NCBI GenBank assembly: GCA_015655585.1
Contig: JAATEV010000050.1
Span: 1 to 64,000 of the forward strand
Length of the DNA stretch: 64,000 nt
Reading direction: 5' to 3'
Origin: Terriglobales bacterium
Lineage (GTDB): Bacteria; Acidobacteriota; Terriglobia; Terriglobales; Acidobacteriaceae
In this document: positions 4,438-47,100 of the stretch, piece by piece
Layout: every line of letters starts with the position of its first letter
How positions within the stretch are numbered: position 1 is the first letter of the stretch
Notes under the pieces: generated by a model
Told to the model about the DNA's origin: nothing
Seen by the model: only the letters and a program-made list of their open reading frames with translations
Databases searched by the model: none
Program-made: the position numbers and the translations under genes

Positions 4438-6270
4438 CTAGTTCTCCGAGGGCCTCTCGATATGGTCAATCACCAGCGTTTCTACCTGCCCTCTGGACGA
4501 TTCCAACTTCAATCCGATTTGCTCCGCCAGAGAAAACGGAGAGACTTCGGATTCAGGTGATTGCTGCTGACCATCGGCAGATGGAGGCGAGGGGGCTGGC
4601 TGTTGCCACGTGATATCGTATTTTCCTGTTAGACCGGTTCTGTCCTGAACCGTCCGTCCCCTTGAAAGCGACGACGCTATTTGACCGATCGATATCCCGA
4701 AGAAGTGCGATGTAATCTCACCATCTTTCCTCTCCTCGGACATCATCCCGCCTCCAGGAAATGGCCATGCGCCCGGATGAGGCTCGGCTGGGTTCGACTC
4801 CTTAAATTTGGGCCCATTCTTCCCCACGATGAGTAAATACACCGGCTCTTCCTTCATGCTGCGGTGTACCACCAGTTTCAGCCTGTCGGCCAGCATGGAT
4901 TGGAGCATGGCTCGCAGCATTCCAGTTTGTTTGCTCGGGTTTTGCCAATCGGCAATATCTGCCTCATCCACCTTCGCGCTGATGTCGTAGCGGTCTACAT
5001 CACTATCACTTACTGTCCATGAGGGAAGACCAAGGACGTGCTCATCCGAGTAATGCGATGCGCCACCAGTCTGCGGAACATATGCCGTAAAAATCGGTGC
5101 CGCCAGAAACATGTTCTTCATTGCGTACCCATCTGGAGTTGGCCTGCCGAAAATCTGCGGACCACCGGCTTTGTTCTGGCGTATGGAAACCACAGCAAAC
5201 TTCAGTCGTTTGCCATCCGTAGCAGAGTGATCGTCCTGAATACTGGCTGCGTGTACTACACCAAACCAAACCGGGACAATCAGTGATCCGAGTGCGACCG
5301 CTCCCAGCATCAGTCTGCGTAACGGAGTCAAGTTCTTCGCAACCCGCAAAGCCATAATCCGCACAATCCGCTTCTTCAAATCCGCCCCAGTAATCCCCGA
5401 AACACAAGCCAGCGGAGTCTCCACACAAAACTCACAAACCTTCAAAATGCTCTCCGCATAACTCACCGGCTGCATCCCTAGCCGCAGCACCTCCTCATCG
5501 CAAGCTCGCTCGCGCTCCTCCACCAGCCGCCCCTCCATCCACCACACCAGCGGATGAAACCAGAACAAAGCCTCCACCACCATATGCAGCAGGGAAGTAA
5601 GATTGTCCCGCCGCCGCACATGGCAAACCTCATGCGCCAGCACCGCCTCAAGCTGAGCATCATCCAGCCGCTGCGAAATCCCCTCCGGCCACAGCAGAGC
5701 AGGCCGCACCAGCCCAAACACTCCCGGCTCCATCGACTCCCGCGAAGCCAGCACTGCAATCGGCCCAAGCACCCCAGCCGCCCGCTCCACCCCACGCAAC
5801 GCCGCAACCTCACGCCCCTCCAGCAAAGGCTCCGCCCGCCGCATCACCCCCGCTATCCGCCGCCACTGCACCCACCAGAACACCAGCACCGCCAGCGATC
5901 CACACCCCCAAACCGCCGCCAGCAAAACCGGAGGCCAGGCGTGAGGCGCAGCCGAATGCATCTCCAAACTTACCGGCACATCCACCGCCCCGGCAAACGG
6001 TCGGCTCACCGTATCCAGCGCCACATAAACCTCACCCGCCGTCGCCCGATGGGACCATGCCAGATGGCTCCCCAGCCACACCAGCACTGAAAACGGCACC
6101 AGAAACTTACCGGAAGCCACCAGCCAAAGACCATACCGCACCCGCGCTGGATTCCGCCGCAGCATCCACGCCACCACCCACACCAAACCCGCAAACGCCG
6201 TGGACTGCCACAGATGGTCACCCACCGCCGGACCAGCCCCAGCCAGCACAGAAGACAAGGAATTCATCAT
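4438..6270 (-). CDS. BlaR1/M56-type membrane metalloprotease fused to a TIGR03435 domain
   Basis: A 610-residue membrane sensor protease. About four membrane segments (near residues 12-35, 45-68, 114-136 and 318-340) surround the M56 zinc site HEVCH (213-217), with the acidic ERERACDEE segment (about 252-260) downstream. In BlaR1 the extracytoplasmic C-terminus binds beta-lactams; here residues about 347-610 are a TIGR03435-type domain (KFAVVSIRQNKAG, LADRLKLVVHRSM, VQDRTGLTGKYDI, LVIDHIERPSEN). The signal sensed is therefore probably not a beta-lactam (inference). Its start overlaps the BlaI stop by four bases (translational coupling). It probably cleaves or otherwise inactivates that repressor on sensing a signal. 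Confidence 0.85.
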   Translation of the reverse strand: MMNSLSSVLAGAGPAVGDHLWQSTAFAGLVWVVAWMLRRNPARVRYGLWLVASGKFLVPFSVLVWLGSHLAWSHRATAGEVYVALDTVSRPFAGAVDVPVSLEMHSAAPHAWPPVLLAAVWGCGSLAVLVFWWVQWRRIAGVMRRAEPLLEGREVAALRGVERAAGVLGPIAVLASRESMEPGVFGLVRPALLWPEGISQRLDDAQLEAVLAHEVCHVRRRDNLTSLLHMVVEALFWFHPLVWWMEGRLVEERERACDEEVLRLGMQPVSYAESILKVCEFCVETPLACVSGITGADLKKRIVRIMALRVAKNLTPLRRLMLGAVALGSLIVPVWFGVVHAASIQDDHSATDGKRLKFAVVSIRQNKAGGPQIFGRPTPDGYAMKNMFLAAPIFTAYVPQTGGASHYSDEHVLGLPSWTVSDSDVDRYDISAKVDEADIADWQNPSKQTGMLRAMLQSMLADRLKLVVHRSMKEEPVYLLIVGKNGPKFKESNPAEPHPGAWPFPGGGMMSEERKDGEITSHFFGISIGQIASSLSRGRTVQDRTGLTGKYDITWQQPAPSPPSADGQQQSPESEVSPFSLAEQIGLKLESSRGQVETLVIDHIERPSEN

Positions 6271-6656
6271 TCGGAGACCTCCTCTTCACCCTTTAGCCGC
6301 GTCAGCTCCCGCTCCGCTTCCTTCACGTCCTCCAGCTTCAACTGCCCGGACTTCACCAGATGCATCATCACCAGTTGCGTCCGCCCCCCGAACATCGCCA
6401 CCAGCTCATCGATCAGCCTCCGCTGGGCCGCCTCCCGAGACACCATCGCCTCGAAGATATGGAAGTTCGCCACCTTCTTTACCCGGCGAACCACCTGCTT
6501 CGTCTCCAGCCGATACACCGTAGTCTGCACCGTCACATAAGCCGGTCTCTTCTTCTCCGGAAACCCCTCCAAAACCTCGCGAATCGAGCACTGCCCCTTC
6601 GCCCAAAGAATCTCCATGATCTGAAGCTCCAGCTTCGACAACTTCGGTCCGGTCAT
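6267..6656 (-). CDS. BlaI/MecI/CopY-family transcriptional repressor
   Basis: A 129-residue winged-helix repressor of the Penicillinase_R family. The N-terminus MTGPKLSKLELQIMEILW and the recognition region AYVTVQTTVYRLETKQVVRR (about 39-58) are typical. The C-terminal half is the helical dimerisation arm. It is the first gene of an operon with the M56 protease (ATGA-type overlap) and the TIGR03435 protein. Two perfect palindromes lie 10-43 bases upstream of its ATG, so autorepression is likely. Family members are released from DNA when the partner protease cleaves them. Confidence 0.92.
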   Translation of the reverse strand: MTGPKLSKLELQIMEILWAKGQCSIREVLEGFPEKKRPAYVTVQTTVYRLETKQVVRRVKKVANFHIFEAMVSREAAQRRLIDELVAMFGGRTQLVMMHLVKSGQLKLEDVKEAERELTRLKGEEEVSE

Positions 6657-6665
6657 GTATCACCT

Positions 6666-6699
6666 CATACAGATGTATGCGTTTCTAATACGCACGTAT
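6666..6699. promoter_or_regulatory. Twin BlaI-type operator upstream of the repressor operon
   Basis: CATAC-AGAT-GTATG (6666-6679) contains TACA-GA-TGTA, close to the known BlaI/MecI operator core TACA-NN-TGTA. A second perfect palindrome, ATACG-CA-CGTAT, lies at 6688-6699. The centres are about 21 bases apart, two helical turns. Placement just before the repressor ATG fits autoregulation; it could also affect the divergent gene at 6742. Confidence 0.75.
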
Positions 6700-6741
6700 G
6701 AGAATGTCAACATAAAACCAGCACTCTTTTAATTTCCATAA

Positions 6742-21669: not shown

Positions 21670-22764
21670 ATGGAAGCAGGCGAGCAGAAGCATAGGAATC
21701 AAGAGAATTTAGCGGAAGATGTCGCGCACCTGTACACGCTAGAGCATGTTGAAGACATGCCATACCGTACTTTTTCCCGGACACATCCATCGGAGTCGCA
21801 CCCTTCCACGTTGAAGGAGATAGCTCAGACTGTTCCAGAGCTTGTACGACCTGCCGAGCCGATCCCAAAACGGGACGAACCTGTTGCAGCTTCTCCCGGC
21901 GATGTTCCGGCTGGCAATACCAATCCTCAGGCCCCTTCGATACCGCTCCCGGTAACGCTTCTTCCCGAGGTGGCTCCTCCTCCATCCATTGCCTCTCCGC
22001 AGAAGCCTGAGTTGCCGCAGGAAGACCGGAACGCTCCAACCGCGATAGCGATCTATTCGCTTGCCGGTGGAGTAGGAAAGACAACGATCACGGCAAATCT
22101 TGGGCGCATCCTCTGCTCGCTCGGCGAAGATGTGGTTCTGGTGGATGCCTCGGGAGGAGGGTTGCTGCCGTTTTACTTTGGCGCCAGCGACCTCCGCTGC
22201 GGTCTTCGCACCTTTATCGCTCCGGGCGGAAGCTGCCGCCCGATGTATGTTCTGGGTACGGAAGACGTGACAGAGACATGGCTCCATACGGATGTGCCAA
22301 AGGCCATGGAGCTTGGCCGGAGAACTATCTTCGATTGTGGCCCGGCCACCACGGCGTTGCTTCCCCATGTGCTTCAGAAGTGCGCCATCCTGCTGGTGCC
22401 TTTGCTCTCCGATCTGAACTCCTTTCTGACGGTTCCTCGTATTGAGGCGTCGATTGCGGCAATGCGCAGCAAGGGAAGCAAGGTTCCGCTGCCGCTCTAT
22501 GTCTTCAATAAGGTCGATGCAAACAGCCTGATGGACCAGAAGGCGCGCGATCTGGCCATCCGGCAGATTGGCGACCGGCTGCTTTCAAACACAATTCGTC
22601 GAAGTCCAGATATCCCCGCGGCGATTGTCGACCGGATGACGGTTGCCGATCATGCTCCGGGAGCCGCGGTTTCGGGTGACTTCAGAGAACTCGCGCTCCA
22701 GTTACGCACAATCGCCCCGCTGCAAGAGACGGCTCGACCCTATGGCCGATGGAGCGAACAATGA
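21670..22764 (+). CDS. bcsQ: Cellulose biosynthesis ATPase BcsQ (MinD/ParA type)
   Basis: A 364-residue cytosolic ATPase of the YhjQ/BcsQ family, thought to place or assist the cellulose synthase complex. Residues about 1-120 are a proline-rich, low-complexity extension. The deviant Walker A is AGGVGKTT (132-139, K137) and FDCGPAT is the Walker B region. DASGGGLLPFYFG replaces the usual D-x-D switch. The gene is the first of the operon, and its TGA overlaps the start of bcsA by four bases (ATGA). Confidence 0.88.
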   Translation: MEAGEQKHRNQENLAEDVAHLYTLEHVEDMPYRTFSRTHPSESHPSTLKEIAQTVPELVRPAEPIPKRDEPVAASPGDVPAGNTNPQAPSIPLPVTLLPEVAPPPSIASPQKPELPQEDRNAPTAIAIYSLAGGVGKTTITANLGRILCSLGEDVVLVDASGGGLLPFYFGASDLRCGLRTFIAPGGSCRPMYVLGTEDVTETWLHTDVPKAMELGRRTIFDCGPATTALLPHVLQKCAILLVPLLSDLNSFLTVPRIEASIAAMRSKGSKVPLPLYVFNKVDANSLMDQKARDLAIRQIGDRLLSNTIRRSPDIPAAIVDRMTVADHAPGAAVSGDFRELALQLRTIAPLQETARPYGRWSEQ

Positions 22765-23435
22765 CAGAGCTTATTACTCGCTGGGGCTCCTTTGGAGCAA
22801 GCTCGGGGCGCTTGGCGGGCTTTATACGGTTTCTAATTTATTGTGTCCTGCTCTTTCTTGCATTTGAGTGCACGAGCGTGCAGTTCGATTGGCCGGAACA
22901 GGCTGCGCTGGCTGTTCTCACTATTCTGGTGGCATACATTCTTCATAGCGTTTCGCAGTCCAACATGGTGACTCTGGCGCTAATGTTTGCTTCGATGTTA
23001 TCTACGTCGCGTTATGCATACTGGAGAATCTCGGCGGTTGCTAAGGAACTTGGCGAGCATGGGAAGACGGTAGGGATCATCAATGCAGGCTTTATGCTCC
23101 TGCTGCTTTCGGCCGAGGCTTATGCCTTTCTGATCCTTTATCTGGGATACGTGCAAACGATTCGGCCACTTCGCCGGCCGCCGGCTCCTATGCCGAAGGA
23201 TATTGAAGAGTGGCCGCATGTCGACGTATTTATTCCCACCTACAACGAGCCCCTGTCCATCGTGCGGTCCACGATCTTTGGTGTGTTGAATCTGGATTAT
23301 CCGGCGGACAAGCTTCACGCCTATGTGCTCGACGATGGACGCAGGGAGGAGTTCCGCAAATTCAGCGAAAAGGTGGGGATCGGCTACATTACCCGTACCG
23401 ATAACAAACATGCCAAGGCTGGCAACATTAACTAG
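22761..23435 (+). CDS. bcsA: Cellulose synthase BcsA-BcsB fusion, N-terminal part ending at an in-frame amber
   Basis: This is the start of the membrane glycosyltransferase (GT2) that polymerises UDP-glucose. The 224 codons encode about four membrane helices (about 20-42, 45-63, 72-90, 106-128), then the GT domain up to the first aspartate motif VLDDG (D191-D192). In the conserved block HAKAGNIN-x-AL, codon 225 is TAG (23433-23435), and the same frame continues unbroken with ALTKVDSPF. ATG 22761 was chosen over 22749 because of the ATGA overlap with bcsQ. Alone this fragment lacks the DxD, TED and QxxRW catalytic motifs and would be inactive. Confidence 0.85.
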   Translation: MTELITRWGSFGASSGRLAGFIRFLIYCVLLFLAFECTSVQFDWPEQAALAVLTILVAYILHSVSQSNMVTLALMFASMLSTSRYAYWRISAVAKELGEHGKTVGIINAGFMLLLLSAEAYAFLILYLGYVQTIRPLRRPPAPMPKDIEEWPHVDVFIPTYNEPLSIVRSTIFGVLNLDYPADKLHAYVLDDGRREEFRKFSEKVGIGYITRTDNKHAKAGNIN

Positions 23436-23438
23436 GCC

Positions 23439-26400
23439 TTGACGAAGGTCGACTCCCCTTTCGTCGTCATCTTCGATTGCGACCACATCCCGACCCGTAG
23501 CTTTCTCCAGATGAGCTTGGGCTGGTTCAAAAGGGATGAGAAGCTGGGGATTTTGCAGACGCCGCACTACTTCTACTCTCCGGACCCATTCGAGCGCAAT
23601 CTGAATCAGTTCATGTCGATTCCGAACGAAGGCGAGTTATTTTATGGCGTGTTGCAGGATGGGAACGACCTATGGAACGCGACCTTCTTTTGCGGTTCCT
23701 GCGCAGCGATTCGCCGCACGGCCCTCGATGAGATTGGAGGAATCGCCGTCGAGACGGTGACGGAAGATGCGCATACGTCGCTGCGCACCCAGATGCGGGG
23801 CTGGAATACGGCGTACATCAATTTTCCTCAGGCCGCGGGTCTGGCTACAGAGAGCCTGTCCGGGCATATCGGTCAGCGCGTACGCTGGGCGCGCGGCATG
23901 ATCCAGATTCTTCGCGTCGACAACCCACTCTTTGCCAAAGGGCTGAAGTGGCCGCAGCGGCTCTGCTATTTCAATGCGATGATTCACTTTCTGTATGCCA
24001 TGCCGCGCCTGATCTTTCTTACGGCGCCGCTGGTGTTCATGTTGCTGGGGTGCCTCAATATCCCCGGCTTCTGGGGAGCCATTCTGGTTTATTCTGCGCC
24101 GCACCTGTTCCTCTCCAACGTGACGAACCTCCGTATCCAGGGCAAGTACCGCTACTCCTTCTGGAATGAGGTCTATGAGACCGTTCTGGCTCCTTATATC
24201 CTGTGGCCCACCATCATGGCCCTGATTAATCCGAAGCTTGGCAAGTTCAACGTAACCGCCAAAGGAGGGCTTATTGAAAAGGGATACTTCGATGCGCATA
24301 TTGCAAGACCCTACATCATATTGATCCTGCTGAATGTGCTGGGGTTGGTTGTGGCTCCCATCCGCTTCTTCTATTGGAATCCGCATCAGGGCGGAACGCT
24401 TGCGATGAATGTTTTCTGGATCTTCTTCAACCTGGTGATTCTTGGCACGGCCAATGCGGTTGCTTACGAGGCGCGTCAGCGTCGTGAGGAGGTTCGCATT
24501 AACGTGCGGCGGTCTGTGGAGGTACATCTGCCGGATGGCCGGAGCGTCTTCGGAGAGTCCATCGATCTATCGCTTGGCGGAGCGATGCTCTCGCTCGAAG
24601 AATCGCTTTCGCTGCCGCAGGGAAGTGAGATTGGTGTGACCTATGCAGTGAGTGGAAAGCAGGTACCTTTGCCGGCAAAGGTCGTGAAGGTCGAGGGGAC
24701 AACTCTTCGACTCAATTACGAACCGTTGTCTCTGGAAGAAGAAGAGAACCTGACTCTGGCTCTTTATTCAAGCGCCGATTCGTGGCTTAGCCGCAATGAG
24801 CGCCGCCAGCCAGACAGGCCGCTGCGTAGCTTCCTTCGCCTCGTTCATCTCTCCGTGAAAGGGAACTGGTACGCACTGACGGGATGGATTCCTAAAAAGA
24901 AAGCCCCTGTGATGTCTGCTGCGGCCCCTACGGGAGCGGATATTCTGCTTGTGATGCTGCTCTGCGGGCTGCCCTCGATGCAGGCGCAGAAGAAGCAAAC
25001 GGCTCCGGCGGCCTCGGCGGCCCCGAATGGCGGAAGTTTCAATACGACCTTTGCCCTGCGGGACATCGGGATTCCTGAAGAGATTGTCTTTCACGGAGTA
25101 GCTGCGTCGCGGAAGATTCCGTTCTCGCTGCCACAGAATGAGCTTGTGCAGCAGGCCTCGCTCAATCTGCACTATGCCTTTTCTCCTGGGCTGATTCCTC
25201 AGATGAGTCATCTGAGTGTGATCCTGAATGGAACGCTGATCGCCACACTGCCGGTTCCGGGAGACAACGGCAAGATGCAGAATGCTCTTTCTGCCAACAT
25301 TGTGTTGCCAGAGACGCTCCTCGTTCGCGACAACGTGCTGGAGTTCGAGTTTATCGGGCACTATACGCAGCAGTGCGAAGACCCGGCCAATACGGTACTG
25401 TGGGGGCGTGTCGAGAATACAAGCACAGTTCAGTTGTCGGGCTCGCTGTTGCCTCTTGCCGACGACCTCAAGATTCTGCCTCTGCCTTTTTACGATGGAG
25501 CTGTCAGCAGTCAGAATGTGACGATTCCGTTTGTTTTTGCAGCTCCGCCCAAAGGCGAGGCTCTTACGGCAGCCGGTGTGATTGCCTCATGGTTCGGGGC
25601 AACTGCGAAGTCCAGGCCGCTGTACTTTCCTGTGACAGTCGCGACTCTGCCGAAAGGCAACATCGTTCTGTTCTCGGAGAACGATTCTTCGCTTCCGCCA
25701 GGTCTGAATCTACAGACGCATGGTTCCAGCATCTCTGTTCGAACGAATCCGGCTGATCCTTATGGCAAAGTTCTGATTATTGCCGGAGACAGCCCGGAGC
25801 ATCTGCTTGCCGCTGCCAGAGCGCTTGCTATCGGCAGCGCGGTTTTGCAGGGGGCGACCTCGCAGATCGGCAATCTTCAGTTGCCGGCGCCTCGCGCAGC
25901 GGACGATGCTCCTTTGTGGATCAAGACGGACCGCATCGTTCCTTTCTCGGATTATCCGGGGCTTACTCAATTGCAGAGCGATGGTTCTGGGCCGCTTCCT
26001 GTCTATCTGCGTGTTCCCCCGGACCTCTATTACGGGGACAAAGAGAATCTCAAGCTGCATATGGACTATTGGTACAACGCCATCTCGCTGGCGAATGCGT
26101 CGACGCTTCGCGTCAATGCGAATTCTTCTGTGGTGAACGACCTTCCTTTGCCTCACGCGGATGCGCCGAAGAAAGAGCTGTCCTATGACATCCCTGTTCC
26201 GGTGGTCTCGATGCGTCCCTTCGCGAACACGCTTCTCTTCAACTTCTATTTCCAGATCGCGAAGATGGGCAATTGCCAGGACTCGGCCCCGATCAATCTG
26301 CAGGGAGCCGTTCTGAAGAGTTCCTACCTCGATGTGCGCGGGCTGCATCACTGGGCTGCAATGCCTAATCTGGAGTTGTTTTCCAATGCAGGTTTCCCAT

Positions 26401-27158
26401 TCACCCGCTTTGCGGATTTCGCGCAGACCAAGGTTATTCTGCCTCCATCTCCGGCGCCGGAGGCGATTGCTCTCTATCTCAGCCTGATGGCTTATTTCGG
26501 AGAGCAGACGGGGTATCCCGCGCTACGGGTCCAGGCTGGGGACCCGTCCCTGCTGGGACAGGATGCGGACTATCTAATTCTTGGAACGCCTCGTGAGCAA
26601 CCCGCATTCGACAGGCTGAAAGAGGACCTTCCAGTTGCAGTCGGAGGTCAAAGCGTCTCTGTTCGCGATAGCGGAGGTTTTTTCGCGATGGTGCAACATG
26701 CCTGGTGGCAGATTGCCGAACTGCGTCCGAACTGGTGGCAGGGACTGAAGCAGGAAGAGCAGAGAAAAGGCCTTGTCGAAAGCCTGGGAGAGATTCCGGA
26801 CGCCCTGATTCAGGGAATCCAGTCGCCGTGGGGCAAAGATCGCTCCATCGTTGCGATCTCGTATAAAGACGATAGCAAGACGTCTCCGTTCGCTGCCGCC
26901 TTCTGGAAAGCATCCACGTCAGGGGATATCAGCCAGTCGGTGAGCGTTCTTCATGGGGCGACGTTCAACTCGTATCGCCTTGGAGACCGTTACTATCATG
27001 TCGGCCATCTGCCGATCTGGGCGCAGGTTCGTTCTTGGCTGCGTGAGTATCCGTGGCTGATCGTTATGCTGACGTTTGTGCTTGGCCTGGTTGTTGTGCC
27101 GTGGGTCAAGATCAGGCTTGATCGTCATGCTAAAGCCCGTCTGGAGCACTCAGCATGA
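23439..27158 (+). CDS. bcsA-bcsB: BcsA C-terminal part fused to BcsB, after the in-frame amber
   Basis: This segment continues the cellulose synthase frame. Numbering from 22761, it has the GT motifs DCD (239-241), TED (334-336) and QRVRW (372-376), further membrane helices (about 400-560), and a PilZ domain (about 572-680; RREEVR and DLSLGGA bind c-di-GMP). BcsB follows in the same frame from about 717: a signal-like helix ILLVMLLCGLPSMQA, periplasmic carbohydrate-binding domains and a C-terminal membrane anchor (WLIVMLTFVLGLVVVPW). A BcsA-BcsB fusion is known as AcsAB in Komagataeibacter. The only possible early starts are TTG/GTG codons without a ribosome site. It needs readthrough or reversion to be functional. 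Confidence 0.85.
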   Translation: MTKVDSPFVVIFDCDHIPTRSFLQMSLGWFKRDEKLGILQTPHYFYSPDPFERNLNQFMSIPNEGELFYGVLQDGNDLWNATFFCGSCAAIRRTALDEIGGIAVETVTEDAHTSLRTQMRGWNTAYINFPQAAGLATESLSGHIGQRVRWARGMIQILRVDNPLFAKGLKWPQRLCYFNAMIHFLYAMPRLIFLTAPLVFMLLGCLNIPGFWGAILVYSAPHLFLSNVTNLRIQGKYRYSFWNEVYETVLAPYILWPTIMALINPKLGKFNVTAKGGLIEKGYFDAHIARPYIILILLNVLGLVVAPIRFFYWNPHQGGTLAMNVFWIFFNLVILGTANAVAYEARQRREEVRINVRRSVEVHLPDGRSVFGESIDLSLGGAMLSLEESLSLPQGSEIGVTYAVSGKQVPLPAKVVKVEGTTLRLNYEPLSLEEEENLTLALYSSADSWLSRNERRQPDRPLRSFLRLVHLSVKGNWYALTGWIPKKKAPVMSAAAPTGADILLVMLLCGLPSMQAQKKQTAPAASAAPNGGSFNTTFALRDIGIPEEIVFHGVAASRKIPFSLPQNELVQQASLNLHYAFSPGLIPQMSHLSVILNGTLIATLPVPGDNGKMQNALSANIVLPETLLVRDNVLEFEFIGHYTQQCEDPANTVLWGRVENTSTVQLSGSLLPLADDLKILPLPFYDGAVSSQNVTIPFVFAAPPKGEALTAAGVIASWFGATAKSRPLYFPVTVATLPKGNIVLFSENDSSLPPGLNLQTHGSSISVRTNPADPYGKVLIIAGDSPEHLLAAARALAIGSAVLQGATSQIGNLQLPAPRAADDAPLWIKTDRIVPFSDYPGLTQLQSDGSGPLPVYLRVPPDLYYGDKENLKLHMDYWYNAISLANASTLRVNANSSVVNDLPLPHADAPKKELSYDIPVPVVSMRPFANTLLFNFYFQIAKMGNCQDSAPINLQGAVLKSSYLDVRGLHHWAAMPNLELFSNAGFPFTRFADFAQTKVILPPSPAPEAIALYLSLMAYFGEQTGYPALRVQAGDPSLLGQDADYLILGTPREQPAFDRLKEDLPVAVGGQSVSVRDSGGFFAMVQHAWWQIAELRPNWWQGLKQEEQRKGLVESLGEIPDALIQGIQSPWGKDRSIVAISYKDDSKTSPFAAAFWKASTSGDISQSVSVLHGATFNSYRLGDRYYHVGHLPIWAQVRSWLREYPWLIVMLTFVLGLVVVPWVKIRLDRHAKARLEHSA

Positions 27159-28291
27159 TGAAGAAGTCCTGGATGTTGTCCGTTGCCATGCTTATGGGAT
27201 TTCTTACGCCATCGTCGTGGGCAAAGAGCTCGTGGCCTTTCTGGGACCACTATGCGGAGCGCTTTGTCAGGCCCGAAGGACGCGTCATCGACCCCGATCG
27301 CAATGACATGACGACATCGGAGGGGCAGAGCTACGCGCTGTTTTTTTCTCTTGTCGCGAACGACAAAAATACATTCCAAAAGATGCTGACGTGGACGGAA
27401 GAGAATCTCGCCAAGGGGGATCTTTCGAAGACGCTTCCAGCCTGGAGTTGGGGGAAGAACGGCAGTAATCAATGGGGGGTGCTCGATGCGAACTCCGCAT
27501 CCGACTCCGATCTATGGATCGCTTATAGCCTGATTCAGGCAGGGACTCTTTGGAAGAGAGCAGATTATTCGGCCAAGGGAAAGAGTCTTCTGCTTCGTAT
27601 CGCACAGGAAGAAGTGGCAGAGGTTCCGCGTGTTGGCTCCGTGCTTCTGCCGGGGAAGAACGGTTTTCAGAACTCCGGCAAATGGACGCTCAATCCCAGC
27701 TATTTCCCGTTGCCGCTGCTATGGAGCGCCAGTACGGTTGACCCTCATGGTCCGTGGAAACAGATGGCCTCCAGCCTGCCAGATTGGCTGGGACAGATCA
27801 GCCGGAGCGGCTTTGCCATGAACTGGGTGCAATGCGACGCGACAAGCTGCCATCCGGCCTCAGACGTGGGAGAGACGTCGAGCCCGCATGGCAGCTACGA
27901 TGCTATTCGCGTTTATTTATGGGCGGGAATTGCGGATAAAGATACACGGGGGAATGCGAAGATCCTGAAGACATTCCAGCCCATGTTGTCTTATGTGAAG
28001 GCACATTCTCTGCCTCCTGAATCTGTAGCGGCCAATGGAGAGGTACTGAGCGCTCCGGGGCCTGTTTCCTTTGCCGCCGCGTTGATTCCGTTCGCATTCA
28101 GCTCCGGGGAATATGCAGTGGCTAACAAGCTGCAACAAAGCGTTACGCAAGCGATATCGGGGACGACAGAACTGCTCGGGAGTCCAGCCCGCTATTATGA
28201 CCAGAATCTTGCGCTTTTTGCGCTTGGCTGGGAACAGCGATATTTCCGGTTTGCCCCTGATGGGACGTTGAGGGTTCCATGGAAAATATAA
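27155..28291 (+). CDS. bcsZ: Periplasmic endo-beta-1,4-glucanase BcsZ (GH8)
   Basis: This 378-residue cellulase trims nascent cellulose chains in the periplasm. A signal peptide (about 1-23, ending WAKS) precedes the GH8 (alpha/alpha)6 barrel. The proton donor is E56 in TTSEGQSYAL. The conserved base segment is DANSASDSDLW (D117/D119). FPLPLLW and the AIRVYLW block fit the bcsZ/CMCax group. Its ATG overlaps the bcsB stop (ATGA) and its end overlaps bcsC by 13 bases, so the operon is tightly coupled. Confidence 0.92.
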   Translation: MMKKSWMLSVAMLMGFLTPSSWAKSSWPFWDHYAERFVRPEGRVIDPDRNDMTTSEGQSYALFFSLVANDKNTFQKMLTWTEENLAKGDLSKTLPAWSWGKNGSNQWGVLDANSASDSDLWIAYSLIQAGTLWKRADYSAKGKSLLLRIAQEEVAEVPRVGSVLLPGKNGFQNSGKWTLNPSYFPLPLLWSASTVDPHGPWKQMASSLPDWLGQISRSGFAMNWVQCDATSCHPASDVGETSSPHGSYDAIRVYLWAGIADKDTRGNAKILKTFQPMLSYVKAHSLPPESVAANGEVLSAPGPVSFAAALIPFAFSSGEYAVANKLQQSVTQAISGTTELLGSPARYYDQNLALFALGWEQRYFRFAPDGTLRVPWKI

Positions 28292-31200
28292 TCCGTCATG
28301 CTCGCAAAGTGATTTTCCAGGCGGCTGTTTGCGCCCTGTTGATCGTCCCCTGTGTGGACATGCAGGCGCAGTCCGCGGTGGAGAAGGCGCTGTTCACGAA
28401 GGCGCATTCGCTTGAAAGCTCAGGACATCTCGATATGGCCGCGCAGACATGGGAGCAGATTCTGCTGATGGATGCGAGCAATAAGGAAGCGCTGCTGGGG
28501 GTTGCCAGAGCAGATATGCGTCTGGGCAAGAAGCAGGAGGCGCAGAGGTATCTGGATCGCCTGCGAGCGGCGGGAGGAAGTTCGGCAGATATCGCGAGCG
28601 TTGAAGCGATGGCGAATCAGCAGCCGCAGGCGGCTCGCCTGAAAGAGGCTGTTCGACTCTCGCAACAAGGCAAGTATGACGATGCCATGCGGATCTACCG
28701 GGACGTCTTTGGCAGCAATCCTCCCGCGGGAGATTACGCGCTCTCGTACTACGACACGGAGGCAGCGATTCCTTCCGCTCGTGCTCATGCGATTGCGGGA
28801 CTGCGTCAACTGTCAAATCAGTTTCCTGCTGACTCGCGCTATGCCGTGACCCTGGGACGAGTGCTGACATACGATCCTAAGACCCGGGAAGAGGGCATCG
28901 CGATTCTGAGTCAATATGGGAGTGTTGCAGCGGCGAAGAGCGCTCTCGAACAGGCGCAGACCTGGAACAAGAAGCCTTCGCCTGCGGTGGCGACGGATTC
29001 GACTGAGGCTCGCACTGGGGCTCAGTCCGCGACAGTGACTTCTCCTGAGAGTCTGGCCTATCGAGCGTTGAACAGCGGCCGTATCGATGATGCGAAGAAG
29101 CAGTTTCAGGACATCCTCAATCGACAGCCCAACAACCGCGATGGTCTTGCGGGAATGGGATATGTCGCCATGAAAGAACAGAACTTCTCCGCAGCGGCCG
29201 ATTACTTTGAACGCGCGCGCGCGGCCGGTTCCAAAGGGGTTGCGAGCGCGTTGAGCTCTGCGCAGTTCTGGGTGAAGATGTCGGCGGCGGCGAACGAGCT
29301 TAAGGCAGGCAACGCCGATACGGCTGTGGAAGGGTATCGCGCTGCGTTGGAGCTAAAGCCGAATGATCCAGATGGCCTTGAAGGACTAGGTGGCGCGCTG
29401 GGGCAGGCGGGAAAAAACGAAGAGGCCGTCACGGCCTTTGAACAGGCTGTGAGCGCAGATGGCCAGAGAGCCTCTGCCTGGAAGGGACTCTTTTTAGCGC
29501 AATCGGCGGCTGCGGATGTGCCGGCTGCCCTGGATACCAACGCACATATACCGAAGAGCGTTATCGACAAACTGGCAAAAGACCCCGATTATCTGCGCGT
29601 ACTCGCTCAGGACTATATTGCCGCAGGGAAGAAAGAAGATGCAGACCGAGCTTTGGCACGGGCTCTTGCGTTGCCGTTTCCGAACGAAGGGCGCGATCTG
29701 CCGGTGCAGGCGCAACTCCAGTATGCGTCCTTGCTTGTAACTGCGAAGAAGTACGATCCTGCGATCCGGTTGTACCGGCAGGTTTTGGCAAAAGAGCCCG
29801 AAAGCCGCGAGGCGTGGATCGCTCTTGTCGCGGCGCAGCATCAGATGAATGCGGATGATGAGGCCTTGACTACAGTCGGCCAGATGCCGCAGCCGGTATT
29901 TGAAAAAGAGCAGAGTGACCCAGCGTTTCTTGCACTGGTTGGTTCCATTTATCAATCGCGTCATGATCTCAGCCACGCGCAGAAATATCTTGAGCGGGCG
30001 GCTACTCTCTCTCCAGCCCGCTCCTCAACGCAGATGCAGCTTGCGGATATCTACGCGGCGCAAGGGAATGCGGCGAAGGCTTATGCGATCTATGTCCGGG
30101 AACATGATCGCGATCCATCCGGCCTTCAGGCGTGGCGTGGAATGTTGAACTCACTGCATCTGTTGAACCGCGACCGCGATGCGCTTCGACAGATAGCGTC
30201 GATGCCGGAGTTTGTGCGTCTTCGCCTCGAAGAAGATGTGGACTACCTACAGGTTCTGGCGTCCATTCAATCGTCGACCGGACAGCCCCGCGCTGCGATC
30301 AAGACGTTCGAGCAGGTATCGCAGATCTATGCGCGGCAGAATAAAGAGGAGCCAGTGGAAGTGCAGATCCAGTATGGATGGATTCTGCTGAAGTCAGGAG
30401 ACGATCGCAGGCTTTACACGTTGATCTCCAACCTATCCAGCTCTTCTGCCATTACGGATGAACAGCAGACAGCACTGAATTCTCTGTGGGCCTCATGGAG
30501 CACGCAACGTGCAAATGCCGCGCTTGCGGCGGGCGATCAACGTCGCGCACTGGCGATTCTGACGGCCGCGGCCCAGGCGTTTCCGCAGAATGAAGATGTC
30601 TACAGCTCGCTTGCCGGAGCTTATATGAAGAGTGGTCAGCCGAAGCAGGCGCTGGCGATCTATTCTTCGCGCAACATGGACCAGGCGAATCTTCAGCAAT
30701 ACGAGGGAGCGATTGGTTCGGCGATGGCTGCCAACAATCTGAATATCGCACATAAGTGGCTTGAGATGGCTCTTGATCGGTTCAAGGATAATCCAACCAT
30801 TTTGAAGATGGCGGCCCAGTATGAGCAGGCGCGTGGCAACAGTGAAGGAGCCACAGCCTATTATCGTGCCGCTCTGAACGCATCAGGTCCAGCCCCGGCT
30901 GGAGGAGGATTGCTTCCGCAGCCCGGTGAGCCTGGCTACAGTCCAAGTCCTGCACAGCAGTTGATGCATCTCCTCGCGCCTCCGGGATCTTCAGCTCGGT
31001 TGAACGACATGAATCTTCCGGATGCCGATACGTCTGCCGACTCTTTGCGTGAGTCTGCCGAGATGCAGGCGCCGACTCTGGGAGATTATGCGAACACAAT
31101 CGCTCCTGGAAATGATTCTCTTTCCGCGAGAAACGACGACAGCCTTGCTGCGCGAGCGGAAGCGCGTGATCGTCTTCCCATGCTGGAAGCATCCAACCGC

Positions 31201-31896
31201 GATATCGTGTCTGTCGGGGAACCGATCCGGCGGGAACCTGCCCCGGCGCGAAGACTCTCCGTTGTGCGTCCAGCTTCTGCTCCAGTGGCTCCGGTCGCGC
31301 TTGAAACGCCCTTGGTATACATCAAGTCGATTCCTGCTCCTGTTGCTCCATTGCCTCAGAGGCAGCGTGAGCTAACGACTGCTGCCGCAAGTTATGCGGG
31401 GATGGAATATCCGGCGGGGGGCAAGTCTTACACCGAAGTGCATGAGATCACCTCGCAACCGGTCGTTGCACAGGATTACATTCCTCAAGATCCGGCGAGA
31501 CCCTCGACTCGGCAACAGGATCTCCCGAATGCCTCATCTCCGGCATCCTCCCTTCCTATACTCGATGGACTTCCCTCCAGTACTGAGCAGTTGGAGGGGC
31601 CTCAACTGCCGTTGCCTCGGCTTTCCGGCTCTACGAAACTTCCTGTTCGTCCTAAGAGCGAGCGGGAGCAGATCGAGGAGCAGCTTGAGATTCTCGAAGG
31701 GGCATCGAGTAATTGGATTGGCGCTTCAGCAGTGGTTGACTATCGCAGCGGGCAGCCGGGGTACGACCGTCTCAGCATCTTCTCTACGCCGATTGAGGCC
31801 TCGACCTCTCTCAGTCATGATGTTCGCGCCACTTTTGTCGTCAAGCCCGTACTGCTCGATGCCGGGCAGGCAGACAGCCAGGCTACAGTGCAGTAG
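28279..31896 (+). CDS. bcsC: Cellulose export protein BcsC, TPR part ending at an in-frame amber
   Basis: BcsC carries cellulose through the periplasm and outer membrane. This part, 1205 residues, has a signal peptide (about 12-34), an array of TPR repeats (about 36-880) and a proline- and serine-rich linker (about 890-1130). The first strands of the BCSC_C barrel follow (WIGASAVVDYRSGQPGYDRL). Codon 1206 is TAG (31894-31896, CAG TAG GGA ACT), after which the same frame continues into the rest of the barrel. Without readthrough the outer membrane pore would be missing. Confidence 0.85.
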   Translation: MENIIRHARKVIFQAAVCALLIVPCVDMQAQSAVEKALFTKAHSLESSGHLDMAAQTWEQILLMDASNKEALLGVARADMRLGKKQEAQRYLDRLRAAGGSSADIASVEAMANQQPQAARLKEAVRLSQQGKYDDAMRIYRDVFGSNPPAGDYALSYYDTEAAIPSARAHAIAGLRQLSNQFPADSRYAVTLGRVLTYDPKTREEGIAILSQYGSVAAAKSALEQAQTWNKKPSPAVATDSTEARTGAQSATVTSPESLAYRALNSGRIDDAKKQFQDILNRQPNNRDGLAGMGYVAMKEQNFSAAADYFERARAAGSKGVASALSSAQFWVKMSAAANELKAGNADTAVEGYRAALELKPNDPDGLEGLGGALGQAGKNEEAVTAFEQAVSADGQRASAWKGLFLAQSAAADVPAALDTNAHIPKSVIDKLAKDPDYLRVLAQDYIAAGKKEDADRALARALALPFPNEGRDLPVQAQLQYASLLVTAKKYDPAIRLYRQVLAKEPESREAWIALVAAQHQMNADDEALTTVGQMPQPVFEKEQSDPAFLALVGSIYQSRHDLSHAQKYLERAATLSPARSSTQMQLADIYAAQGNAAKAYAIYVREHDRDPSGLQAWRGMLNSLHLLNRDRDALRQIASMPEFVRLRLEEDVDYLQVLASIQSSTGQPRAAIKTFEQVSQIYARQNKEEPVEVQIQYGWILLKSGDDRRLYTLISNLSSSSAITDEQQTALNSLWASWSTQRANAALAAGDQRRALAILTAAAQAFPQNEDVYSSLAGAYMKSGQPKQALAIYSSRNMDQANLQQYEGAIGSAMAANNLNIAHKWLEMALDRFKDNPTILKMAAQYEQARGNSEGATAYYRAALNASGPAPAGGGLLPQPGEPGYSPSPAQQLMHLLAPPGSSARLNDMNLPDADTSADSLRESAEMQAPTLGDYANTIAPGNDSLSARNDDSLAARAEARDRLPMLEASNRDIVSVGEPIRREPAPARRLSVVRPASAPVAPVALETPLVYIKSIPAPVAPLPQRQRELTTAAASYAGMEYPAGGKSYTEVHEITSQPVVAQDYIPQDPARPSTRQQDLPNASSPASSLPILDGLPSSTEQLEGPQLPLPRLSGSTKLPVRPKSEREQIEEQLEILEGASSNWIGASAVVDYRSGQPGYDRLSIFSTPIEASTSLSHDVRATFVVKPVLLDAGQADSQATVQ

Positions 31897-31905
31897 GGAA
31901 CTCTG

Positions 31906-32832
31906 ATGGCTACGGTTGTGCCCGATCCTCAGACGGCATCGGGAGTCGGCGGGGAGGTCCAACTCCGCACACCCTCGTTTGCGGCGATGCTTGGATATTC
32001 TCCATACGGATTTCTGGTACAGAATGTAATCGGCGGACTCTATATCCATCCGCCGTCCTCGCATTTCACGCTTACCTTCGGACGCGATTCCATCGTCGAT
32101 ACGCAGTTGTCGTACTCTGGGCTGCGGGATATGGGCAGCCGCAGTCCAACCTATGTGGGAAATTACTGGGGCGGTGTCGTTACGAACTCCGGGGAGCTGC
32201 AACTTTCATTCGGCAATGAGAAGTCTGGATGGTATATCCAGGGCGGCGGGCAGTATCTTACTGGAAGGCACGTGCAATCGAACAAGCGCATCGATGGCGA
32301 TGCCGGAGCGTACTGGGCCGTATGGCATCGTCCTGAATATGGAAGCCTGACTCTGGGGCTGAACTTCTTCGGGATGCACTACGACAACAACGTGAGATAT
32401 TTCACCTACGGGCATGGCGGCTACTTCAGCCCTCAAGCCTACATGCTTGCCGGTATTCCATTTACCTTCAATGGACATCATGGCACCAAGTTTCGTTATC
32501 GCATTACTGGGAGTCTTGGGATGCAGGCATTTGAGGAAGATTCCGTTCCTTACTATCCGCTTGATCTGGCTCTTCAGTCTGCCAGGAAAAATCCCTGGTA
32601 TCCCTCACAGACCAGCGTAGGAGGGAACTACAGTCTGGATGCGGAAGGGTCATACGCGATTGCGGAGCACTGGTATGTTGGCGGGGATCTGAACTTCAAT
32701 AACTCCAGAAACTACGCCAGCAGCAACGTCAACTTTTTCGTGCGGTATCTGTTCCGCCCACAGCCGCAGGTAGAGAACGGGCCGACAGGCCTCTTCCCGG
32801 TTCAAGGCCTGCGTCCCCTGCGTGTTCCCTAG
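31906..32832 (+). CDS. bcsC: BcsC C-terminal beta-barrel, after the in-frame amber
   Basis: This 308-residue segment is the BCSC_C outer-membrane barrel in the same frame as the TPR part; three codons (GGA ACT CTG) separate the TAG from its ATG. Family features are SASGVGGEVQLRT-like TASGVGGEVQLRT, SYSGLRDMGS, WGGVVTNSGE and the C-terminal strand NVNFFVRYLF. The combined gene (28279-32832) would encode about 1517 residues, long for BcsC but consistent with its linker. The ATG has no signal peptide or ribosome site, so this part cannot work alone. Confidence 0.82.
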   Translation: MATVVPDPQTASGVGGEVQLRTPSFAAMLGYSPYGFLVQNVIGGLYIHPPSSHFTLTFGRDSIVDTQLSYSGLRDMGSRSPTYVGNYWGGVVTNSGELQLSFGNEKSGWYIQGGGQYLTGRHVQSNKRIDGDAGAYWAVWHRPEYGSLTLGLNFFGMHYDNNVRYFTYGHGGYFSPQAYMLAGIPFTFNGHHGTKFRYRITGSLGMQAFEEDSVPYYPLDLALQSARKNPWYPSQTSVGGNYSLDAEGSYAIAEHWYVGGDLNFNNSRNYASSNVNFFVRYLFRPQPQVENGPTGLFPVQGLRPLRVP

Positions 32833-43992: not shown

Positions 43993-44122
43993 TTGATCTC
44001 CATAGACATCATGAAAAGGTTTTCAGACCGCGCTGCGATTCTTCGCAGCTCATAGGATTGATGTCTTAGTGTGCATTTTCGAGTTGAGTTGTTGGTTTTG
44101 CAGTCATTATTCGGAGGATTTT

Positions 44123-47100
44123 ATGAAAGACAGAATTTCCCGCCTGGTCTGTTTTACGGCCGCCCTGGCAATGGTTCTCTGCATGGTCCCGGCAGCGTTG
44201 TGGGGACAATCGGGCAACCAGGGTACGGTTGTCATTACGGTTCAGGATTCCAGCGGCGCAGCCGTTCCTGACGCATCCCTTGAGCTGCTTGAAGAAACCT
44301 CGAACAGCGTTCGTAAAGCGCAGACCGATAGCCATGGTCTGCATAGCTTTGTGAACTTGAACATCGGCACATACAAGCTGACGGTGACACACGCCGGCTT
44401 CCAGACGAGCATCTTCAGCCAGGTGCTGGTGCAGTCCTCGACGGTAACTCCTCTGACGGTCAGCATGGAAGTCGGTCAGGTTACCGAGACGGTACGCGTC
44501 ACGGGTGAAGCAACGGCTGTCCTGCAGACCAGTTCCACCGAAATCGGTACGGTCATCAACACGACCGACATCGAAAATCTTCCGATCTCCGGTCGTACCA
44601 TCAGCGGCTTGACACAGCTCACGGCCGGATACAACGGTACATGGAACGGCTTGCCGGAGGGAACGCAGGGAACCAACATCGACGGCGCCATCGGAAACAA
44701 TGGTCGTACTAAGTATCAGGGCACAATCAGCACTTCGATCTCTCCTCGTATCGAGTCGTTCGAGCAGGTTAGCGTCGTCAGCGATGGTCTGAACTTGGGC
44801 AACGGCTTCGGCACAGCTACTACGCAGCTCAACTACGTCTCTCGTCGCGGTAGCAACCAGTTTCATGGACGCGCTTACTACGACTTCCGTAACAGCGGTC
44901 TGAACGCAAACTCCTGGGCGAATGATACGGCTGTCAACTCGGCTGGACAGTGGGCTCCAGTACGCAAGGCGAAGCTGATTCAACACGACTTCGGCGTCAG
45001 CGTGGGCGGCCCAATCCTCCATGACAAGCTCTTCTTCTTCGGCACATACGCGGAGTTCAAGCAGCCTGGAACTGTCATTCAGACCAACAACATCTTTGCC
45101 CCCTCTGCGCTCCAGGGTAATTTCACTTATATCGGAACGGACAAGCAGCCTCACACTGTCAATGTTCTCCAGCTAGGCCAGGCCTATAATCCAAACGCTT
45201 CTCAGCCAGGCCAGCTAAACCCGGATGTCTTACGTCTCGAGCAGACTGCGATCAATTCGACCAACGGGCAAGGTCTAACAACTCTTACAGACCCAACGAT
45301 TCTGCAGACATCCTTCAATGCTCCGGGTACACAGACCAATTATTACCCTGTCGCCCGTCTCGACTACAACGCGACGGACAAGCTCCGTATGTACCTGTCC
45401 TGGATCATGCAAGAGAGCAAGCCCGTTGGCAGTTATCCCGCTCCGTTCGCTGGAGCGGCGTATGCGGACCAGGCTGGTAATAACTTCACACGGAACTTCA
45501 ACATGAACTATGGTTTGGACTACATTATCAGCCCCAGCCTGATCAACCAATTCAAAATCGGTTTCATGTACAGCAAGCAGCAGTTCGCGAATGGAGTAAA
45601 CGATCAGAATTATCTGACCAAGCCTCTTGTTTACTTCCAGATGACAGGTGCGAACTCTGCAATGTCAGGCCAGACTTATGTCACAGAGACTGGCTATGAA
45701 TATCCTCTCTTCAGCCTATCCGATGGTATGACTTATCAGAAGGGCGCTCATAACTTCAACTTTGGCTTCCAGGGCTATCGGGAGCAGGACCACTACTACA
45801 ACTCGCCCCAGGGCTACTCGCAGATTTACTTCGGGGTGAATGCTGGTGCAGGAGACCCGGTTGCCAATGCCTTCCCGCTTCCGGATAAGAATGGCAACGG
45901 GCCATTGCCCTTCGCCAACTCAACAAGTCAGGGCGAAGCAGAACAGCTATTTGCGGTACTGACTGGTCGCATCTCGAGCGTTGCCGCTACATACGGTTAC
46001 GATCAGAAGAGCAACAGCTACGGCCCTCATTCTTTCAACCTTGACGAAGTTGCCTTGGCGTCCGGCGTGTGGTTCCAGGATTCCTGGAAGGTATTCCCCA
46101 CGCTGACACTGAACTACGGTCTGCGGTGGGACTTCACGGTAGACCCGCACGATATCAAGGGTTCCTATCACAATGTTCCGTATACCAGCATCTGGGGGCC
46201 GACGGCTCCTGGCGACCTTTTCAAGCCCGGTGTTTTGAACGGCAATCAGAATCCTGCCTTTGCCCTTAACCCGCGTCCAATCAAAGGTTGGTACAAGACC
46301 CCTCAGCCTCAGGTTGCTCTGAACTGGAATCCTAAGCCTAAGGATGGATTCCTGAGCAAGCTTCTGGGCGACGGTGCAACCGTTATCCGCGCAAGCTTCG
46401 GTCTGCGTAACTTCACTGAGCCTTACCAGTTCTACTGGGACAACGCTTCTGCTTCCGGCTCTCTGTACAACCAGAACCGCGCTATGACTGCAAATACGAC
46501 TGGAGCTACGGGAACCTTTACCCCCGGTTCCTTCAACTACGTTGCCAGCCAGTGGGGTGGACCTGGTGTCATTCCTTCTGGAACGGCATTTTCTCTTAGC
46601 CCTGCAACCTTCCCCGATTCGGCGCCTCTTAGCGGGTTCACCTTTATCGGTGGCGGTGGAAGCATCTACGGTATCGATCCGCACATCCGCCTTCCATATA
46701 CAGAGTCTTGGTCGTTGGGTGTGCAGCGTGCACTCTCCCGCGCCACGGTTCTTGAGGTTCGCTACAACGGCAACCGGACGGTGCATCAGTGGATGACCTT
46801 CAACTATAACGAAGTGAATATTTTCGAGAACAAGTTCCTTACGGACTTCCAGAATGCTCAGAAGAATCTAGCATCTAATGGCGGTAAGTCGTTCTCGGAT
46901 GCGGGTCTGATCAAGACACCGATCATTGATGCTGCGTTCGCGAACACACCCGGTAACTTCACCTCATCGACGTTCATCAACTACCTCACCAATGGGCAGG
47001 CCGGTACCTTTGCCTACTCGCTTGCTGGTAATGGTACGCCTAACTACTTCTGCGCCCTGGTTGGATCAAGCTTCGGTCCTTGCAAGACGAACGCGAACTT

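Follow-up and report, generated by a model that had tools for sequence, protein, structure and literature searches.

A putative BlaRI-like proteolytic switch with a TIGR03435/DUF3738 outer domain in Acidobacteriota

The stretch of DNA analysed here (the window, 64,000 nucleotides from the start of contig JAATEV010000050.1 of a draft Terriglobales genome) encodes an M56 protease that is fused, within one ORF, to a TIGR03435/DUF3738 domain (T for short) and that directly follows a gene for a BlaI-type repressor. We consider it fairly probable that this arrangement is a BlaRI-like proteolytic switch whose extracytoplasmic input differs and which would often control an outer-membrane receptor. The domains, their fusion, the conserved zinc-site residues, the operator-like dyads and the operon partners on which this reading is built can all be read from the sequence.

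The fusion operon and its resemblance to BlaR1-BlaI

The operon runs along the minus strand in the order blaI, M56-T fusion, separate T gene, and the ORFs upstream of blaI are oriented the opposite way. The blaI-type gene (6656-6267, minus strand) encodes a 129 aa repressor that matches Pfam Penicillinase_R at 80.2 bits (cut-off 22.6) and the solved penicillinase repressor 1sd4 at E 5.9e-7 (phmmer). The start of the fusion gene (6270-4438, minus strand, a single ORF of 610 aa) overlaps the end of blaI by 4 bp. Its Peptidase_M56 domain (residues 23-303, 5362..6204, minus strand; PF05569, 128.2 bits, cut-off 31) contains the motif HEVCH at residues 213-217 (5620..5634, minus strand) and is followed by a predicted last long helix (residues 316-347, 5230..5325, minus strand) that leads out to T. 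The T domain itself occupies residues 357-610 (4441..5202, minus strand) and scores above both curated cut-offs, at 142.5 bits for NCBIfam Soli_TIGR03435 (cut-off 40) and, over residues 409-604 on the same strand, at 126.7 bits for Pfam PF12543, DUF3738 (cut-off 22). The protease with its HEVCH motif, the C-terminal TIGR03435-type domain and the adjoining BlaI had all been claimed in the original prediction, and each was borne out; the domain was also rightly described as lacking a known function, since NCBIfam names it only "TIGR03435 family protein" and Pfam gives "unknown function". A second TIGR03435 gene had likewise been placed downstream, and a gene matching this profile is indeed found there (4426-3488, minus strand), but it is interrupted by an in-frame TAG at 3838-3836 that the prediction did not mention. 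Both halves around the TAG match TIGR03435 and DUF3738, each above the curated cut-off, and the stop could mark a pseudogene or be a draft error, for example a sequencing error. The next neighbour downstream (3284-2028) appears by eye to encode a tyrosyl-tRNA synthetase. Further along the window, large co-directional ORFs at 22749-32832 resemble, by eye, a cellulose synthesis cluster.

BlaR1 is an antibiotic-resistance sensor, and what the window shares with BlaR1-BlaI and MecR1-MecI of staphylococci (BlaR1 structures 8exp and 8exs) is the HEXXH motif, an aligned glutamate and an adjoining BlaI-type repressor. A profile built from the M56 parts of the fusions matches solved BlaR1 (8exs) at E 1.7e-15, and in our reading of the profile alignment Glu254 of the fusion, which we take from BlaR1 to be the third zinc ligand, falls opposite BlaR1 Glu242. 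His213, Glu214, His217 and Glu254 are each invariant in 71/71 fusions. In the full-length AlphaFold2 model (mean pLDDT 84.5, pTM 0.56), the long helices before T include residues 2-36, 42-55, 60-70, 112-145 and 316-347, a predicted layout compatible with an outer C-terminal domain as in BlaR1. The model sets T behind helix 316-347, the last of the M56 part, and this fits the extracytoplasmic placement that had been proposed for it.

Other features set the fusion apart from BlaR1, first among them the replacement of the BlaR1/MecR1 sensor by T. The fusion scores 89.4 bits against the NCBIfam BlaR1 equivalog NF000326, below its cut-off of 400. One study (PMC9834060) describes S. aureus BlaR1 as cleaving BlaI directly, undergoing autocleavage at Ser283-Phe284 and sensing by SXXK acylation. 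In the profile alignment, the BlaR1 autocleavage site corresponds to Val290-Ser291 of the fusion, within a conserved CVSG(I/V)TG segment; the receptor P1' position is Ser or Ala in 69/71 fusions, not Phe as in BlaR1, and the BlaI P1' position is Leu in 73/76 and Phe in 3/76 sequences. The fusions also differ from BlaR1 in having three near-invariant cysteines (window 5404-5502), namely Cys257 (71/71), Cys279 (68/71) and Cys289 (68/71), the latter two of which are missing, by eye, in three divergent M56 proteins of the same genome (C121, C90 and C11). A redox or metal input via these cysteines is possible. Two of the three flank the segment aligned with the BlaR1 autocleavage loop. At the level of the locus, no beta-lactamase or PBP gene was seen in the window operon, and an outer-membrane barrel gene is a frequent operon partner where fusions occur. 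Judged by its sequence, then, the anatomy would work like BlaR1-BlaI, and neither its sensor nor the curated cut-off would place it in the BlaR1 family.

Operator-like dyads upstream of blaI

The staphylococcal operator has TACA-like half-sites, and dyads with such half-sites also occur in the predicted promoter of the window's blaI, where an operator role is predicted. By eye, a -35-like hexamer TTGACA (6705..6710, minus strand) is paired with TAGAAA (6687-6682) across a 17-bp spacer. One operator-like dyad, ATACGTGCGTAT (6688..6699), lies within this spacer, and a second, ATACATCTGTAT (6667..6678), lies 21 bp from it, just before the blaI start. A search for sites of the TACA-NN-TGTA type had been suggested, and it succeeded in the operon and failed beyond it. 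The window holds one exact TACANNTGTA (6668-6677), immediately upstream of blaI; since 0.15 would be expected and 14/100 shuffles contain at least one, this site alone is weak evidence. Across the draft genome, TACANNTGTA occurs 9 times as against 17 in the reversed control, and ATACRNNYGTAT occurs 6 times as against 3, two of the six being the window pair and the other four lying inside ORFs of 286-698 aa, so a regulon beyond the operon found no backing. Genomic sites may have been missed, because the draft is 74.7% complete.

In a search open to any spacing, dyad pairs 21 bp apart were found upstream of 18/75 related blaI genes, which are not independent of one another, as against a mean of 0.55 and a maximum of 3 in 20 base-shuffled sets. 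Other spacings in the same upstream regions averaged 0.45, with none from 12 to 89 above 2; by the criterion used, 57/75 upstream regions lack a 21-bp pair, and a test on dyad score only was weaker (23/75 as against 6.0). The window's dyads share the 21-bp spacing of the family, and the recurrence of such pairs in relatives supports autoregulation.

The half-sites also appear to track the repressor. Where at least three of the four arms could be read and a class assigned (26/75), TAC half-sites go with Ala at BlaI residue 39 in 17/17 cases and GAC half-sites with Gly in 9/9, a rule seen post hoc in sequences that share ancestry. Within the source genome, the window (TAC/Ala) and the loci on contigs C27 and C51 (both GAC/Gly) fit this rule, and those on C55, C121 and C118 could not be classed. 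Among 12 further relatives, the four with at least three readable arms (L186, L187, L189 and L193) are all TAC/Ala, one (L183) has a mixed half-site with Gly, and the remainder had too few arms.

The T domain and its distribution

Structure prediction of T, which had been proposed as a check, gave a confident AlphaFold2 model (116 rows; mean pLDDT 90.1, pTM 0.82). No significant match to T was found in the PDB by sequence (best E 0.58), among solved structures by Foldseek (best E 0.66), among 951 chains by VIA (best Z 2.4) or among viral models, and such weak matches are no proof of a new fold. The N- and C-terminal halves of T do resemble each other. When the ranges were widened a little, the columns restricted to those of the window and match columns set by occupancy, hhalign aligned the N-terminal with the C-terminal half at probability 71 (P 3.7e-5, score 30.0, 89 columns), while 60 runs with shuffled N-half columns scored a mean of 11.2 (sd 2.2, maximum 17.1). 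The result depends on settings, since an earlier hhalign setting gave a far weaker alignment (probability 13.8, P 0.002, 26 columns). T is thus probably an old tandem duplication of two related halves, as judged from these profile alignments. Its strand-helix pattern had prompted a comparison with the STN (secretin/TonB short N-terminal) domain, which profile comparison did not support: the N and C halves scored 9.2 and 14.4 against STN, and shuffled columns reached 17.1 and 14.9. Gly586 is the sole invariant T residue in the 71 fusions, and the conserved polar positions Thr545 (70/71) and Asp543 (63/71) could mark a pocket.

Some same-genus fusions carry an insert of about 110 residues, without a Pfam match, between the last M56 helix and T. 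Such fusions of about 700 aa (L177:1471-3576, L167:409-2499 and similar) have an insert of W-x-G, beta-rich appearance, and a stretch like it stands ahead of T in one separate protein (L110:3151-4377). T-like domains also stand C-terminal to a WCxxC thioredoxin-type stretch in proteins of about 400-440 aa from seven genomes of the phylum (L153-L159, by eye); the one that was tested against Pfam matched AhpC-TSA, Redoxin and DUF3738, and two of the seven T matches fall below the cut-off (G147 and G059).

The draft source genome (3.12 Mb in 122 contigs) contains 31 T matches, 30 of them above the cut-off, together with 8 M56 genes and 8 BlaI genes. By coordinates and open frames, six of the eight M56 genes are fused to T (those on C90 and C11 are unfused), and five of the six fusions stand directly behind blaI, the sixth being a second copy behind another fusion on contig C55, where the order is blaI, fusion, fusion, T. 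On contig C27 the order is blaI, fusion, T, T. On contig C118 (L037:1832-3501), blaI and an Oar-like gene (see below) flank a 40-position scrap of T that scores 26.9 bits, below the cut-off, and this locus looks like the same operon minus its receptor protease.

The original prediction had staked itself on the fusion recurring unsplit in related genomes. A protein search at E <= 1e-60 returned matches in 16/62 genomes of the genus, the source genome included, and none in the other 46; one of the 15 relatives (G307) matched through T only. Among the 14 with an M56 match at that threshold, the fusion is intact in 12, and the other two are cut short: what remains is M56 with the first portion of the outer part in G322, and M56 with the first portion of T in G349, the latter 160 bases from a contig end. 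In a wider search based on the fusion, and therefore biased to fusions, we took the best 80 of 204 relatives. M56 and T form one ORF in 79 of these loci (L122 is split), a BlaI match is present in 78 (absent in L073 and L121), with its end at most 250 bp before the M56 domain in 76 of them, and two T domains stand behind one M56 in seven. By title, all of the best 80 belong to Acidobacteriota except one "Phycisphaerae" contig (L080), which is probably misplaced or misbinned because its gene lengths and scores mirror those of a Bryobacteraceae locus (L079). The culturable Terriglobus roseus DSM 18391 also has the fusion (L096). No record among 72,556 plasmids covers at least 80% of the fusion, and the 28 matches found are all below 60% identity. 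The intact fusion in 12 of those 14 same-genus relatives, together with the six fused M56 genes out of eight in the source genome, argues that it is no local accident.

Across the phylum, T was found in 32/297 genomes, in 28 of them above the cut-off. Eight T-rich relatives hold 190 T and 27 M56 matches, with at least four T in fusions (three in G139 and one in G241). T is mostly a separate protein, outside M56 proteins. Literature searches returned nothing on TIGR03435 or DUF3738 and nothing linking BlaR1 or peptidase M56 with Acidobacteria, and among the titles listed none was seen to describe the M56-T architecture. Searched by term, two acidobacterial genome papers (PMC3174227 and PMC5900883) gave no BlaR, M56 or penicillinase/penicillin, and PMC5900883 also gave no BlaI or TonB.

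Operon partners and the proposed switch

A second recurrent partner of the fusion is a gene for an Oar-like outer-membrane barrel, a protein usually of about 1030 aa that, where Pfam-tested, consists of CarboxypepD_reg and OMP_b-brl_4. With limits of the same strand and a start from 350 bp before to 600 bp after the end of the last T gene, and with a profile that was made from recurrent neighbours in the same loci, an Oar-like gene was found downstream in 24/73 testable loci and upstream in 1/71, which leaves 49/73 wider loci lacking a downstream one within these limits. The count omits L122 (no fusion ORF) and six loci short of downstream sequence, and the 24 include a 170-aa fragment (L102) and a gene that starts 539 bp away (L114). 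In the genus, an Oar-like gene follows 9/12 fusions, in two of them after a T gene; G323 and G340 lack it, and the G299 locus reaches the end of its contig. Separate T genes lie downstream on the same strand in 15/79 loci at more than 60 bits. Because the Oar-like gene is in the operon of many relatives, what the switch usually controls is probably a receptor in the outer membrane or an uptake function, a hint that its role is not antibiotic resistance.

We infer the repression, the proteolysis, the topology, the direction of signalling and the nature of what T senses as follows. Bound to both dyads of the blaI promoter, which lie 21 bp from each other, BlaI would repress its own operon. The M56 zinc protease would face the cytoplasm, with T outside the inner membrane where BlaR1 has its penicillin-binding sensor. 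On binding a ligand or a partner, T would change its state, and the last helix would relay this to the protease, which would remove BlaI and so derepress the operon. Against this proposed switch count the P1' Phe that is not kept, the prevalence of T as a separate protein, the window operon's lack of a receptor gene together with its broken T gene, the 46/62 same-genus genomes with no match at E <= 1e-60, the 49/73 wider loci with no downstream Oar-like gene within the limits and the 57/75 blaI upstream regions with no 21-bp pair by the criterion used. Taken as a whole, the interpretation given in the original prediction is partly supported, by the recurrence of the fusion and the modelled position of T, with ligand binding by T a putative role.

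FecA-FecR and PupB-PupR are cell-surface signalling systems that use an anti-sigma/ECF sigma pair, and FecR-type regulators read TonB-dependent receptors. By analogy, the fusion may likewise regulate from the inner membrane through a periplasmic domain, its gene standing next to one that resembles an outer-membrane receptor gene; unlike in those systems, an M56 protease and a BlaI repressor take the place of the anti-sigma/ECF sigma pair, and no STN similarity was found. One alternative, which we regard as a genuine if tentative possibility, is that T is a protein-docking module whose partner would be the outer-membrane receptor, a separate T protein or something else in the periplasm, and that the protease reads this contact in FecR-like fashion. 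The Oar-like genes in same-genus and wider operons, the downstream separate T genes and the apparent construction of T from two related halves would all agree with docking, whereas the absence of a sequence link to the STN signalling domain, the lack of a receptor gene in the window operon and the conserved polar positions of T, which may line a pocket, speak against it.

That lack also bears on the state of the window locus itself. No Oar-like gene is present in the window operon, the one such ORF elsewhere in the window (44069-47977, 231 bits to the Oar-like profile) lies about 37 kb from the switch, and the sole remaining non-regulatory gene of the operon is the separate T gene with its in-frame stop. 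With the receptor gene gone and the T gene stopped, the locus could be a decaying copy, a switch with no output, and contig C118 of the same genome, with BlaI, an Oar-like gene and only a T scrap, would be in keeping with such decay. We find this rather doubtful: blaI and the 610-aa fusion are intact, zinc-site residues included, both dyads fit the family spacing, and the single TAG in a 122-contig draft may be a sequencing error.

T has repeatedly switched between a place in the receptor and a gene of its own. In a tree of 155 T domains, made by a quick method with 61/152 inner branches weak, the label "fused" has to change at least 12 times on the starred branches. Some operon T genes retain the end of M56 at their N-terminus (the CVSGITG loop and the last helix); with a profile of this tail, 8 distinct T genes scored above 20 bits, seven beside a fusion and one (L025) elsewhere, in a test of 70 rows that repeat genes from overlapping loci, as against 0/350 shuffled and 0/139 hydrophobic N-termini above 10 bits. 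The remaining operon T genes have N-termini resembling ordinary signal peptides, and the window's separate T scores 14.7 bits. The idea that this separate T is a recent copy of the window's own sensor was rejected: the sensor shares 30% and 35% identity with the two pieces of the separate T and ranks 133/149 and 108/158 among their matches. The sensor itself is matched best by a separate T on contig C83 (41.7%), and in the tree it groups with C83 and C57. The forced changes in this quick tree, along with the 31 T matches in a 3.1 Mb draft, would suit a paralogous domain that recombines and is carried along on M56 proteins, hitchhiking with no sensing role. We judge this quite unlikely, since fusions stay together with blaI, and often also with a dyad pair and a barrel gene downstream, a pattern that free hitchhiking does not predict.

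It is very improbable that T is a diverged penicillin-binding fold and still a beta-lactam or cell-wall sensor, given that the shared M56-BlaI chassis and the listed VIA matches to S. aureus PBP4 (four of 11, Z 2.1-2.2) and to a YXKC-DACA model (Z 2.0), matches no stronger than background, are set against the Foldseek result, the lack of any Transpeptidase or Beta-lactamase Pfam match to the window fusion at E <= 1, and the lack of a conserved SxxK (absent in the window's T and present anywhere in T in 20/71 fusions), which makes BlaR1-like acylation unlikely.

Returning to the proteolytic switch, a bolder extension of it, which is speculative and on balance improbable, would make T a new class of extracytoplasmic signalling domain built of two tandem units, their fold having no solved relative among those found, which reads the state of an outer-membrane receptor or its import and drives the destruction of BlaI by M56. 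This would be a receptor-to-repressor route by proteolysis, parallel to the route from FecA through FecR to sigma, with each BlaI having its own operator and several loops running in one cell.

What our analysis adds is the operon that recurs with an outer-membrane barrel gene, the dyad pair at 21 bp whose half-sites go with a BlaI residue, and the duplication within an outer domain that has no significant match among solved structures. In Acidobacteriota the BlaR1-type chassis of protease and repressor recurs under another outer domain, and its operon often includes an outer-membrane receptor-like gene. If the proposed switch is real, it would give TIGR03435/DUF3738 its first testable role, and soil bacteria that are difficult to study would supply a natural series of switches working in parallel, with operators that can be told apart.
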